IMG/VR virus record: IMGVR_UViG_3300046463_000508
Coordinates: 1-52,815 of that record
Length of the DNA stretch: 52,815 nucleotides
Reading direction: 5' to 3' (one strand)
From: a virus
Shown here: positions 2,212 to 49,346 of the stretch, piece after piece
How positions within the stretch are numbered: the stretch's first letter is position 1
Layout: every line of letters starts with the position of its first letter
Program-made: the position numbers and the translations under genes
The notes under the pieces: generated by a model
Told to the model about the DNA's origin: nothing
The model's database searches: none
Seen by the model: only the letters and a program-made list of their open reading frames with translations

Positions 2212-2718
2212 TCAGGCGGCGATTCGGGGAACCAGAACGCCGAGATCCGCCAGGCTCTGCAGCGCGATCGCGCATTCATCGCCAAAGGCAAACATGGCAC
2301 TGCCAGCGCCTGAGCGGCCCTTCTTGTGGCTGTTCTCATGGCTGGGCACGAAGGCAATTCGTCCCTTGATTAGAAGGGTCGCTGATGCGCTGGCCATCGC
2401 TTCCTGAAACCACTCGGCATCCGTACGGCTGAACACCAGCGCGAGGCCGTCGCCATGAGCGATCAGACGGCGCATCCAGAAGCCTGTGTCGGGTCCATAT
2501 GGCGGGTTCATCCAGACTCGGCCGGACCATTCTTTCGACAGACCGTCATCGAAGATTGTGTACTTCGTTTTTGCCGGCACCGCTGTCACATAGTCGTGCG
2601 GGCTGGATGGATCGAGGTCGAACTGCAAGCCGAGCCGTTCGAAGATCCAGGCAGGTGTGTACCACTCGACGCTCTTGTGCTTTGGCTGCGCTGCGCGTGC
2701 ACCGATCATTCCAGTCAT
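2212..2718 (-). CDS. dam: phage DNA N6-adenine methyltransferase (Dam family)
   Basis: A 168-residue enzyme of the phage Dam methyltransferase family that transfers a methyl group from S-adenosylmethionine to adenine N6 in DNA. The catalytic motif NPPY is at about 71-74 (WMNPPYGP). The N-terminal WYTPAWIFERLG..FDLDP is typical of this family, which lacks a long target-recognition domain. A GTG six bases upstream could also start it, but the ATG at 2718 overlaps the stop of the preceding micro-gene as ATGA and is preferred. Likely role: protection of phage DNA from host restriction, or regulation. Confidence 0.88.
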   Translation of the reverse strand: MTGMIGARAAQPKHKSVEWYTPAWIFERLGLQFDLDPSSPHDYVTAVPAKTKYTIFDDGLSKEWSGRVWMNPPYGPDTGFWMRRLIAHGDGLALVFSRTDAEWFQEAMASASATLLIKGRIAFVPSHENSHKKGRSGAGSAMFAFGDECAIALQSLADLGVLVPRIAA

Positions 2719-2771
2719 CGCCACGGCCCCTTGTAGATGAGGTAGGCCATGTAGAGCGGGGCGAAGATCAT
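2715..2771 (-). CDS. 18-residue hydrophobic micro-protein
   Basis: A very short reading frame: ATG at 2771, stop at 2715. Its product is mostly hydrophobic and aromatic (begins MIFAPLYMAYLIYKG), enough for one short membrane helix. It is joined on both sides by ATGA overlaps, with the gene ending at 2768 and with dam starting at 2718. This double coupling is the main reason to think it is translated. It may be a real membrane peptide or only a coupling device. Confidence 0.55.
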   Translation of the reverse strand: MIFAPLYMAYLIYKGPWR

Positions 2772-3142
2772 AGTAGGTGCGCTCCTGCTTCGAGTAGGCC
2801 GTCGCGGTCTTCGCGCAGGTTGTCGCGCTGAGCCTTGAGCTGGTCGCGTTCTCTGATCAAAGCCTTGAGGGCTGTTGAGATATTCCGGTGACCGAGCGTG
2901 ATCGTGATGGCTTGAGCCTCATCGAACAGCTTGACCTTCTGGTCTCGGTCGTCCGCCGCCCGCGCAGCCAGTTCTTTTTCCCGAATCTTCAGGCAGCGCT
3001 TGCAGGTGACGTGACGCCAGTTATTGGTGAGCTGATCGTCGGTCATATCGCCGTCGGTACCGCAGTAAACGTCTTCGGGCGGGTCCTGGTCGGCTTCGGT
3101 GCCGCCGTCCCAGGGGTATAAGTGAACCGCGCGCTTGCTCAT
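2768..3142 (-). CDS. hypothetical protein with Zn-ribbon-like N-part and coiled coil
   Basis: A 124-residue protein. The N-terminal half has cysteines spaced like a small zinc site (YCGT about 27, then CKRC about 49-52). The C-terminal half is a charged heptad-like helix rich in Arg, Asp and Leu (about 88-120). The start at 3142 overlaps the previous stop as ATGA; a longer upstream start would run into that gene. Function unknown. Confidence 0.7.
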   Translation of the reverse strand: MSKRAVHLYPWDGGTEADQDPPEDVYCGTDGDMTDDQLTNNWRHVTCKRCLKIREKELAARAADDRDQKVKLFDEAQAITITLGHRNISTALKALIRERDQLKAQRDNLREDRDGLLEAGAHLL

Positions 3143-3705
3143 GGCGTCACCTTCTGGCCGAGCAGCACATCGCTGACGACCTCCCATAGTCGAGCCGGCG
3201 ACCACTGGAACCGGTCAAAGTCGGTGTCGGGCTGAACGCCATAGGTGCAGGTGGAGTGCGCCCCCGCTGGGTACTCGCCGCGCTTGGCCATGATCGTTGC
3301 CACCCGGCCATCGCCGCCCGGCGTCGTTGCGTGGTATTCGTAGGCGATCGTGTTGTAATCGTTGCCGGCCTCGACCTTGAACGATCCGTCGCTCACCAGG
3401 TGGGCCCGGCCATCAGGAGTCCATGGCCGCCCACCGCCTGCCGTACGGGCACCTTCATGCAGGTACAGCATGAATCCGCCGCCCTCGTCCCGTTCCATCC
3501 TGAAGCAGTGATTGAACTGGGTTCCGACGATCACGCGCGAGGTGAAGTTGAAGCGGTGGTCATGGATGGCCGAGTGCGCGAAGCACGCCCGGCGTGGCAG
3601 CTCAGGGTGCCAGACGTGCAGCCGCTGGTTGCCTTGGAGCTGGACTTGCACGAAGCCGAGCCCGTGCAGGGTGATTTTGTCCGTCATTACGTCATCGATA
3701 ATCAT
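3139..3705 (-). CDS. hypothetical protein, possible cupin-like fold
   Basis: A 188-residue protein. Mid-protein it shows HSAIHDHRF and later YEYH, spaced between predicted beta strands. This recalls the metal-binding histidines of cupins, but I do not recognise the family. ATG 3705 is preceded by AAGGCGG and overlaps the stop of the micro-gene upstream (ATGA). A longer frame to 3840 exists but would overlap two coupled genes and is unlikely. It belongs to the chain of coupled early-left genes. Confidence 0.65.
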   Translation of the reverse strand: MIIDDVMTDKITLHGLGFVQVQLQGNQRLHVWHPELPRRACFAHSAIHDHRFNFTSRVIVGTQFNHCFRMERDEGGGFMLYLHEGARTAGGGRPWTPDGRAHLVSDGSFKVEAGNDYNTIAYEYHATTPGGDGRVATIMAKRGEYPAGAHSTCTYGVQPDTDFDRFQWSPARLWEVVSDVLLGQKVTP

Positions 3706-12478: not shown

Positions 12479-12502
12479 AAAAAGCCCGCTCAGTGGCGGG
12501 CT
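12479..12502 (-). terminator. terminator of the hicA-hicB-secB-like operon
   Basis: Stem AGCCCGC/GCGGGCT (12484-12502) with a T run on the minus strand (12483-12479). It lies 50 bases after the chaperone gene and just before OL/PL, so it insulates the early-left promoter from lysogenic transcription. Confidence 0.8.
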
Positions 12503-12554: not shown

Positions 12555-13001
12555 TCAAGATGTCGTTTTCTTCTTGCGAACGGGCGATCTGCGCGGAGCG
12601 GGTTTACGTGTAGACGGGCGGGGAGGTGAAAACGGAAAATCAGAAGCGCTAGCACCGAGATATTCAAGGTTCGGCTTGGCCACATTTCTCATATACGGAT
12701 ACAGAAGCAAGGCCACTTCATAGGGAACGTCGGGAAGTTTCAAGTTATCTACTACAGAAGGCTCAATAATCTGAAACTCTCCGATAATCTTCAAATTGAA
12801 AAATATGTCCCCGCCTGCGGCACGTGTTTCTAGCGTCATGCGCACACTAAACGCATCTCCGGCGCCAAGATCATCAATTGGATTCGCATACTCCACCCCA
12901 AGTTTTGCTTCGAATCCCTGATCGTCTTCTGAATGGCGGAATGCGGAGCCGTTAATGCTCTCGACGGATACCAGGACCAAACGAATATCATTCAGTTTCA
13001 T
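12555..13001 (-). CDS. SecB-like chaperone of a HicAB system
   Basis: A 148-residue protein that I read as SecB-like: N-terminal strand plus FEAKLGVEYAN (about 30-40), paired strands FSVRMTLETR and FNLKIIGEFQI, then LLLYPYMRNVAKPNLEYLG and FPFSPP. SecB and toxin-linked SecB-like chaperones end their fold with a similar [L/A]YPY-x-R-x-x-x helix and a Pro-rich loop. A basic tail follows (128-148). It overlaps hicB by ATGA and is the last gene of the operon. In chaperone-controlled toxin-antitoxin systems such a protein protects and folds the antitoxin. The fold call is by eye, moderate certainty. Confidence 0.68.
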   Translation of the reverse strand: MKLNDIRLVLVSVESINGSAFRHSEDDQGFEAKLGVEYANPIDDLGAGDAFSVRMTLETRAAGGDIFFNLKIIGEFQIIEPSVVDNLKLPDVPYEVALLLYPYMRNVAKPNLEYLGASASDFPFSPPRPSTRKPAPRRSPVRKKKTTS

Positions 13002-13444
13002 TGAACGGCTCTCAAAACTACGCGTTGAGTGGGTCGACGTTCGTGAACAGTGAAGGAAGTTTCATAGCCCTGATGACTTTCGTAGTGATGATGAACCTCT
13101 TGATGCCTACCGTTGAGATGGCAATCAATGGCTTCTCTAACGAAATCATTGATACTTTTTTCTTCTCGCTGAGCCTGTCGTGCCAAATCTCTATGCAGAG
13201 TGGCGCCGATTCGGACGTTGAACGTTCCGGAGAAAGGCTTATTAGGTGGCAGGCCTAGCTCTTTGCAAGTCTCCAAGTAATCGTCAACCGATTCTTTAAA
13301 AGCCTCGTTGAGATCAGTGATGTTATCGGCCTCATAGGTGACCAAATCATCGATAAGTAGAATTTTTCCATGGAGGACGCCTGCCTCCAGAGCGAACTCC
13401 ACAGATCCCTGAAATCCATTATGCTCAAGAATCTTTTTGCTCAT
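12998..13444 (-). CDS. hicB: HicB family antitoxin with C-terminal extension
   Basis: A 148-residue HicB antitoxin. Residues 5-60 are the HicB pseudo-RNase H domain (GVLHGKILLIDDLVTYEA, VDDYLETCKELG); 72-108 are a ribbon-helix-helix DNA-binding part (FSGTFNVRIG ... INDFVREAI). Typical members of this type end near residue 110. Here about 38 further residues follow, His-rich then basic and hydrophobic. Such a tail could be a chaperone-addiction segment recognised by the downstream SecB-like protein. It should neutralise HicA and repress its own promoter. It overlaps both neighbours by ATGA. Confidence 0.88.
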   Translation of the reverse strand: MSKKILEHNGFQGSVEFALEAGVLHGKILLIDDLVTYEADNITDLNEAFKESVDDYLETCKELGLPPNKPFSGTFNVRIGATLHRDLARQAQREEKSINDFVREAIDCHLNGRHQEVHHHYESHQGYETSFTVHERRPTQRVVLRAVQ

Positions 13445-13695
13445 GTTAAATGCCCTTGCGCTGTCAAGGCCTCAACAACTGCCTCGATTTGGTAAGCTAG
13501 CAATGTGCTATCAGGATGTCGTTTATGTAACAAAATCTTGTGCTTACTGATGTTTATGAATTTTTTCCGCGATCCTGCCCCCTCTATTTCGGAATATCCA
13601 AAATGTCTGAGGATTTTGACAACGTCCTCCCACGGAAAATCCTTCGGTGACGGTCTGCGGGTGAACTCATCAATGAGTTTTTGAATCCGGCTCAT
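13441..13695 (-). CDS. hicA: HicA family toxin (mRNA interferase)
   Basis: An 84-residue toxin of the HicA double-stranded-RNA-binding-like fold: FPWEDVVKILRHFGY helix, the GAGSRKKF strand turn (39-46), then HKILLHKRHP (52-61) and a C-terminal helix. It belongs to the G-S-R variant, where the active-site His is supplied by the KRHP/H region rather than GSHH. It would cleave mRNA when HicB is lost. ATG 13695 is used because the TTG at 13725 lies in the promoter palindrome. First gene of the operon, overlapping hicB by ATGA. Confidence 0.85.
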   Translation of the reverse strand: MSRIQKLIDEFTRRPSPKDFPWEDVVKILRHFGYSEIEGAGSRKKFINISKHKILLHKRHPDSTLLAYQIEAVVEALTAQGHLT

Positions 13696-13720
13696 TGACG
13701 ATGCCTCGATCCTATCGGAT

Positions 13721-13764
13721 TGCAACTATAGTTCAGTTGCACCGAGTGAGGCAATGAAGGGGGG
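13721..13764 (-). promoter_or_regulatory. hicA operon promoter with operator palindrome
   Basis: Reading leftward: a -35 TTGCCT near 13758-13753, 18-base spacer, then -10 TATAGT (13734-13729). An inverted repeat TGCAACT/AGTTGCA (13721-13727 / 13735-13741) surrounds the -10, and the centre AACTATAGTT is itself palindromic. This is a plausible HicB autoregulatory site. Confidence 0.5.
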
Positions 13765-14058: not shown

Positions 14059-14850
14059 CTATAGCATCCCGCCGCGCCACACGACGCGCCCGATGATCCG
14101 CACTTCGTTTATCTCGCCGTCTCGCAAAATCTCGTCGCCATATCGCGCCTTATCCGAGTTGTCGCTACGGATGATCCAACCCTCGATGTCTGACTTCACC
14201 AAGCGCTTCACGATCGTGCCTTTAGTGGCGCTCTGCATGGCGAATATCTGGCCGTCTTTCGGTTCGATCTTCGACTCATCCACCAACAGCACGTCGCCGT
14301 CGTTGATGGTCGGCTCCATGCTGTGACCGTTCGCATAGATGACGTCCAGGTGTCGCTGGTTCAGGTTGTTCGCCCGAAGCCAGGACGACTTGAACGCCAT
14401 GACGCCGCGAATCTCTACGTGAGGATTGTCGTCGCCATCGCCGGTTGAGCCGCGCGCAGTGAGTTGCAGCACCCCTGTATAGCCCGGCTCATTTCTGAGA
14501 TCGAAGCTCCGCGGCGGTGCGCGTTCGTCGTCAGTCTCGCGGTGAGAAGGGCGCGTATCAGGGAGAGATGCCGCCATCTTTTCAATCTGTGCGGCCAGCG
14601 TCGGACTGATATCGGATACGGGAACCTGCAGCGCTTTCGCGAAAACCACAGCAGCATTAACGCTCAAGGCCGTGCGCCCGTTCATAAAGTGGCTCACCGC
14701 GCCTTGTGTGACGCCATCGCCCAGTTCTGCGGCGAGTTTTTCTTGGGTGAGCTTCAGCTCTCCGCGCTTTGCCTGGAAGAGGGATTTCAGACGAGCGCTG
14801 TCTTGCAGCTGCCAGTCAGATAACGGTAGCCGTCGGGAGTCTTTTTTCAT
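14059..14850 (-). CDS. cI: CI-type phage repressor (HTH plus S24 peptidase domain)
   Basis: A 263-residue lysogeny repressor. The N-terminal HTH (about 20-78) contains LTQEKLAAELG and VTQGAVSHFMNGRTALS, where the second is the recognition helix. The C-terminal half is a LexA/S24 self-cleaving domain with Ser177 (NGHSMEPT) and Lys215 (IVKRL). It should bind the 17-bp operators at OR and OL, dimerise, and cleave itself when RecA is active after DNA damage. No clear Ala-Gly cleavage site is visible in the linker. It is transcribed leftward from PRM. Confidence 0.93.
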   Translation of the reverse strand: MKKDSRRLPLSDWQLQDSARLKSLFQAKRGELKLTQEKLAAELGDGVTQGAVSHFMNGRTALSVNAAVVFAKALQVPVSDISPTLAAQIEKMAASLPDTRPSHRETDDERAPPRSFDLRNEPGYTGVLQLTARGSTGDGDDNPHVEIRGVMAFKSSWLRANNLNQRHLDVIYANGHSMEPTINDGDVLLVDESKIEPKDGQIFAMQSATKGTIVKRLVKSDIEGWIIRSDNSDKARYGDEILRDGEINEVRIIGRVVWRGGML

Positions 14851-48605: not shown

Positions 48606-49346
48606 CTATTTGAGAAATAATAATTTCTTGATGGAATCAGTCAGGCTAAGGCCTTCGTATATATAAAATGTGTTTGTTGTTGGCCCATTCATCGGCAATA
48701 ACTTGTTTTCATCGTGATCATAACGTCGTGCAACATATCCCAATGACTTCATGATTGTGGATACGTTGTGCCAATCTGAGTTTTCTACCATTATTATTGG
48801 CTTCGATCGCTCAATTGTTCTTTTTAATCCGCGAAGAACCATCGACTCGGCGCCTTCGACGTCAACCTTAATTAGGTCGGGAGATAATTTTAAATCATCA
48901 CCAACCCTCAAGTCGCATTTGACCTTCTCCAGCCTTGTAAGCCCGCCGCGCTCCAAGAATTTTTGCTTGACCCAAGGTAGTTCGTAGTATGAGTCTGTTA
49001 TAGAAGCCTCTTCTATGAAGGCCTCTTCGTTTGAATATGGTATGTTTAAATAAAAGCTGCCCCCTTTATCGGCTAGGCCGTAGGGGTTTATTTCTATGTT
49101 TCCGGGTACTTCGCTCGCCAGGCTATTTAGTTCGTCTATAAGTATGGGGTTTGCTTCATACGAGTGAATGGTCGCGTCTGGAAAAAGTATTCGGAAGGAT
49201 ATAATGCTTTGGCCAAGATTTGCACCTATGTCGAGTATTGTGTTGATGCGTCTTGAGCCTATTGTGAAACCATAAAAATCAGTGTCATGAACTTCTTTGG
49301 TTTTCCATCGTTGCATCACTGCTTCTGATAAGTGCTTTAGTTCCAT
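48606..49346 (-). CDS. FkbM family methyltransferase
   Basis: A 246-residue S-adenosylmethionine-dependent methyltransferase of the FkbM type: motif I ILDIGANLGQS (37-47), IHSYEANPILIDEL, LIKVDVEGAESMVLRGL and IIMVENSD. Such enzymes often methylate sugars of surface polysaccharides. It is opposite to the late operon, clearly AT-rich and between tail fibre and endolysin genes, which marks it as horizontally acquired cargo. Changing the host surface to block phage adsorption is a reasonable but unproven role. Confidence 0.87.
   Translation of the reverse strand: MELKHLSEAVMQRWKTKEVHDTDFYGFTIGSRRINTILDIGANLGQSIISFRILFPDATIHSYEANPILIDELNSLASEVPGNIEINPYGLADKGGSFYLNIPYSNEEAFIEEASITDSYYELPWVKQKFLERGGLTRLEKVKCDLRVGDDLKLSPDLIKVDVEGAESMVLRGLKRTIERSKPIIMVENSDWHNVSTIMKSLGYVARRYDHDENKLLPMNGPTTNTFYIYEGLSLTDSIKKLLFLK

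Follow-up and report, generated by a model that had tools for sequence, protein, structure and literature searches.

A probable HicAB-type toxin-antitoxin-chaperone operon with a third protein of predicted SecB-like fold in a temperate phage

HicAB-type toxin-antitoxin-chaperone (TAC) systems are already established, the precedent being the chaperone-dependent HicAB-SecB TAC of Methylomonas methanica MC09 (Mmet-TAC; PMC5105189), and tails on the antitoxins confer chaperone dependence in TACs (PMC5105189, PMC6377645). In the HigB1-HigA1-Rv1957 TAC of M. tuberculosis the antitoxin tail is the chaperone target, and structure 5mtw holds the chaperone Rv1957 in complex with that tail. Two E. coli systems with a SecB-like chaperone in a three-gene toxin-antitoxin operon, CmdTAC and MqsRAC, protect their host from phages (PMC9519451, PMC11618068). 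In the E. coli phages mEp234, HK106 and mEp506, the order cI-hicA-hicB-third gene is found in the same place after cI and before N, and the GenBank record of mEp506 (PV340542) annotates the third gene as 'HicC chaperone'; the mEp234-type module is present in 6 of 5,426 complete E. coli genomes. A literature search that did not extend to preprints or most subscription journals found no paper using 'HicABC' or 'HicC' in this sense, and no experiments on this HicABC lineage.

We analyzed a three-gene operon of this kind in a 52,815-nucleotide viral record (IMGVR_UViG_3300046463_000508, hereafter the window). The window is a phage genome that encodes an integrase, a terminase, a portal protein, a tape measure protein and tail fibres, and its host is probably Pseudomonas, since a flanking replication gene shares ~82% DNA identity with two Pseudomonas phages. 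hicA, hicB and a third gene are consecutive minus-strand ORFs joined by ATGA overlaps at 13441-13444 and 12998-13001, and a repressor gene lies 363 bp upstream of hicA on the same strand, bearing out the initial annotation, which had placed the operon beside the repressor. The features, in order of position, are:

12483-12502, minus strand: terminator-like hairpin of the intrinsic type, AGCCCGCCACTGAGCGGGCT TTTTC, from a scan
12555-13001, minus strand: third gene (hicC-like), 148 aa, predicted SecB-like chaperone from the AlphaFold2 (AF2) model, Foldseek and VIA
12998-13444, minus strand: hicB, 148 aa, HicB antitoxin with an RHH domain (PF05534, phrog_9151)
13001-13114, minus strand: HicB C-terminal tail, ~38 aa, NGRHQEVHHHYESHQGYETSFTVHERRPTQRVVLRAVQ, candidate chaperone-addiction (ChAD-like) segment
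13441-13695, minus strand: hicA, 84 aa, HicA-type toxin with an ATG start (PF07927, phrog_8887); an alternative TTG start 30 bases upstream of the ATG, same strand, is possible
13721-13741, no strand: operator-like palindrome TGCAACT-N7-AGTTGCA, perfect 7-bp arms, kept upstream of hicA in relatives
13725-13754, minus strand: promoter-like pair TTGCCT-18-TATAGT, with the -10 inside the palindrome, from a scan
14059-14850, minus strand: S24/CI-type repressor gene (PF00717, 1.4e-14; HTH_3, 3.2e-9; phrog_4, 1e-38)

Elsewhere in the window, a methyltransferase-like gene (48606-49346, minus strand; phrog_8156, E 6.8e-17) lies past the tail-fibre genes, oriented opposite to them, and is possibly another accessory gene.

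We put the probability that this operon is a HicAB-type TAC module of a temperate Pseudomonas phage, including a chaperone-dependent HicB, at about 85%. In such a module HicA would be the toxin, the N-terminal part of HicB would bind it, and the RHH domain of HicB would bind the palindrome over the promoter and so repress the operon. The 38-aa tail would keep HicB unstable unless the SecB-like third protein bound the tail; with the chaperone present, HicB would fold and neutralize HicA, and if the chaperone were lost, titrated or sequestered, HicA would be freed and growth would stop. Freed HicA, from an operon expected to be expressed in the lysogen, could serve prophage addiction, abortive defence against other phages, or both.

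HicB belongs to the antitoxin family with a DNA-binding RHH domain (PF05534, E 3e-19, 69.1 bits against a cut-off of 21; phrog_9151, E 8.5e-42), and HicA is likewise a member of its family (PF07927, E 3.4e-9, 37.1 bits against a cut-off of 27; phrog_8887, E 7.9e-25), so that ORFs, Pfam and PHROGs all confirm the initial reading of ATGA-joined HicA-type and HicB-type genes. Relative to its two-gene relatives, the HicB of the window has a 38-aa C-terminal extension, the tail expected of a TAC antitoxin. Many HicB tails start, straight after the RHH domain, with an HxH segment (VHHHY, FHFHF, IHYHF, HNHNH), and the rest of the tail is variable.

The 'GSH' histidine essential in canonical HicA (PMC12297915) is absent from the HicA of the window (GSRKKF), and R or G takes its place across a 93-member subfamily. 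This histidine marks the HicA ribonucleases that have been characterized, and the curated Pfam family does not require it; as its loss is common to the whole subfamily, the profile membership stands and ribonuclease activity is putative. H57, H60 and P61, which form an HxxHP motif, are 97-100% conserved among the 93 homologues, and because GSH has become GSR or GSG while H57 and H60 are nearly invariant, the active site may have moved to these other histidines. The missing GSH histidine would also be expected if HicA had ceased to act as a ribonuclease in an operon that is decayed or purely regulatory, but the near-invariance of H57 and H60, the three intact genes and the strong purifying selection on hicB (dN/dS 0.04-0.07) make this alternative unlikely.

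The third protein had no match by sequence in Pfam, PHROGs, NCBIfam, PADLOC, the PDB, phage and plasmid records or genome contigs. It did not match the curated SecB profile PF02556, and because it does not pass that cut-off we use the name 'SecB-like fold' and not 'SecB'. IMG/VR phage contigs contain homologues, one of them identical and three sharing 40-47% identity, each preceded by homologous hicA and hicB. A homologous third gene directly follows hicB in three related loci (L004, L005 and L006), and its dN/dS against L004 is 0.34, indicating that this ORF is a genuine gene.

An AF2 model of the third protein, based on an alignment of four homologues, reached a pLDDT of 82.4 and shows four long strands followed by helices. 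When this model was compared with the PDB using Foldseek, the best match was Rv1957 (5mtw, E 5e-6) and the next was SecB, which is the outcome anticipated when comparison with these two proteins was first proposed. VIA-align gave Z scores of 10.7 and 10.3, compared with 5.3 for the highest-scoring chain that does not belong to the SecB-like group, and the best two matches in a viral structure library bear the name SecB. By model, Foldseek and VIA-align, the third gene is thus predicted to encode a SecB-fold protein, as the third gene of a TAC operon does. Profile comparisons gave a weaker signal that is in register with this prediction. Using hhalign, the third-protein family of the window aligned over its whole length with L061/L078 (P 1.7e-6) and also matched E. 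coli/H. influenzae SecB (P 2.5e-4), the E. coli query being a letter-for-letter match to 5jtl. L078, a relative with the same operon type, itself scores against PF02556 (E 6.9e-4, 20 bits), below the cut-off of 26. The best two PDB matches of a 10-sequence third-protein profile (A7) were SecB at E 0.15, with YPYMR aligned over FPYAR. The SecB likeness originally called from a short motif therefore agrees with both the predicted fold and the weak sequence evidence, which together support a SecB-like fold for the modelled protein.

Set beside Mmet-TAC by description, the operon shares the HicA toxin, a C-terminal extension of HicB (residues 119-159 in Mmet-TAC) and a SecB-like third protein. It differs in its phage setting beside cI and in its chaperone, which falls well short of the Pfam SecB cut-off, whereas the Mmet chaperone is ~53% identical to that of a Vibrio MqsRA TAC (PMC5105189). 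The initial annotation had treated a HicAB version of a chaperone-controlled system as a departure from known TACs, a view that the Methylomonas precedent and the coliphage 'HicC chaperone' overturn. The M. tuberculosis TAC provides the closest solved fold, but it is built on a HigBA pair and its chaperone is only about 10-16% identical to that of the window. CmdTAC and MqsRAC share the SecB-like chaperone in a three-gene operon, but their toxins and antitoxins are others (ADP-ribosyltransferase; MqsR) and defence is demonstrated there; the operon of the window had no match among PADLOC defence profiles.

The coliphage modules (NC_019715, PV340542) resemble that of the window in gene order downstream of cI, coupling of hicB to the third gene, HxH tail and operator, but no sequence similarity could be detected between the mEp234-type third protein and that of the window (hhalign P 0.34). 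For the mEp234 protein, AF2 on a shallow alignment gave a poor model (pLDDT 55). Foldseek placed SecB and Rv1957 among the best matches of that model, but with E values of 0.003 or worse we do not take it as proof of a SecB fold. The mEp234 protein, gp36 (NC_019715 26874-27299; L017:3450-3875), is phrog_19522, a family of unknown function, and since its gene holds the third position in an operon of this type, phrog_19522 is probably a HicB chaperone.

The operon had been proposed to have its own promoter, with a palindrome at the -10, and its own terminator. The palindrome held up, and the promoter and terminator are present as listed, but the scans alone did not exceed shuffled sequence (3 vs 2.1 for promoters, 2 vs 1.2 for terminators). 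The window holds GCAACT-N7-AGTTGC a single time, where 0.20 occurrences would be expected if one mismatch is allowed, and the motif is found upstream of hicA in 45/59 loci with a tailed HicB vs 3/32 with a short HicB. This single occurrence and the same placement in tailed relatives give the palindrome support independent of the promoter scan. TGCAACT-N7-AGTTGCA also recurs in L004, L005 and L006 (6-bp arms), mEp234 and Rahnella, where the other upstream DNA differs, and a similar hairpin with a T-run lies downstream of the L004 third gene. The palindrome is most simply read as a HicB operator.

To place the operon in a wider family, HicB profile scans yielded 160 loci, which comprise 96 different HicBs once the window, two phage records and a Rahnella plasmid are included. 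The three-gene order, which the initial annotation had suggested looking for in other genomes, recurs in dozens of phages, including mEp234, HK106 and mEp506, and in the one Rahnella plasmid. Tail length past the RHH domain is strictly bimodal (<=9 aa or >=32 aa), the tail being found in HicBs with a downstream third gene and missing from short HicBs. Among 93 non-redundant loci with enough downstream DNA (63 tailed, 30 short), a coupled third gene of 118-175 aa follows 56/63 tailed HicBs vs 2/30 short ones, and the two behind short HicBs look like chance ORFs; beyond these 56, tailed L046 has a coupled third gene just outside the limit used. The association (Fisher p 5e-15) is overstated by that p value, because the loci are related by descent: a HicB-core tree shows 6-7 changes of the tail and no more than 3 well-supported independent pairs, of which 1-2 are concordant and almost none discordant, which is not enough for a statistical test.

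The long third proteins can be sorted into eight or more groups that show little detectable resemblance to one another. A confident fold was obtained only for the group of the window, so the term 'SecB-like' for the other groups, which we infer, rests on length, position, C-terminal motif and, for L078, Pfam. In four loci (L075:2446-2721, L088:2239-2592, L100:2440-2721 and L101:2485-2769), a protein of 92-118 aa replaces the SecB-like gene after a tailed HicB; these share a motif like 'GxVGP...PGxxxGVxxIGL', have no convincing Pfam match, and may act as an alternative, non-SecB partner of HicB tails. In L091, a transposase-like ORF (2625-3308) follows a tailed HicB and apparently interrupts the operon.

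Tail and third protein also diverge together. With both HicB halves and HicA held constant, the partial correlation between tail and third-protein distances was 0.55 in the mEp234-like group and 0.56 when the group of the window was added (p 0.001, from permutations that ignore phylogeny), compared with 0.34-0.40 for the RHH half, 0.19-0.24 for the N-terminal half of HicB and 0.11-0.23 for HicA. This pattern fits tail-chaperone pairing, although shared recombination could give part of it, as the 3' end of hicB adjoins the third gene. The third gene diverges much faster (40-47% protein identity) than hicB (68-85%), which, like the general chaperone activity of SecB-like proteins, could instead point to a two-gene HicAB followed by an unrelated phage gene whose SecB-fold product has another client, such as a phage protein. 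The ATGA coupling, an order kept in many phages, the tie to the tail and the co-divergence with it leave that arrangement with little probability. Least probable is a third protein that acts as a second antitoxin or co-repressor on HicA or the operator, as proposed for TAC chaperones (PMC5105189, discussion) and allowed by the small remaining HicA correlation, since its correlation is far stronger with the HicB tail and its predicted fold is that of a chaperone.

The TAC reading thus draws on the fold, the weak SecB sequence signal, the tie between tail and third gene, their co-divergence, the operator, the coliphage gene order with its 'HicC' annotation, and the Methylomonas precedent. Counted against it were a third protein under the SecB cut-off everywhere, phylogeny-linked co-occurrence, adjacency of tail and third gene, and a HicA that lacks the essential histidine. 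A bolder proposal, which we hold to be less likely than not, is that HicABC forms a large undescribed class of lysogen-expressed exclusion modules at the place after cI where lambda has rexAB, in which a fast-diverging SecB-like chaperone would sense superinfecting phage, with a near-invariant HicB operator kept while chaperone and tail change together.

The operon probably represents a phage-borne branch of self-guarding or phage-defence modules of a kind already known; the size of that branch, its conserved operator and the co-divergence of tail and chaperone appear undescribed in the literature searched. TACs are emerging as a class of phage defence whose mode of toxin release is still under study. 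Dozens of natural variants that combine a shared HicB core and operator with a changing tail-chaperone pair would allow direct tests of tail-chaperone specificity and of the trigger, and phrog_19522 gains an explanation as a likely chaperone.
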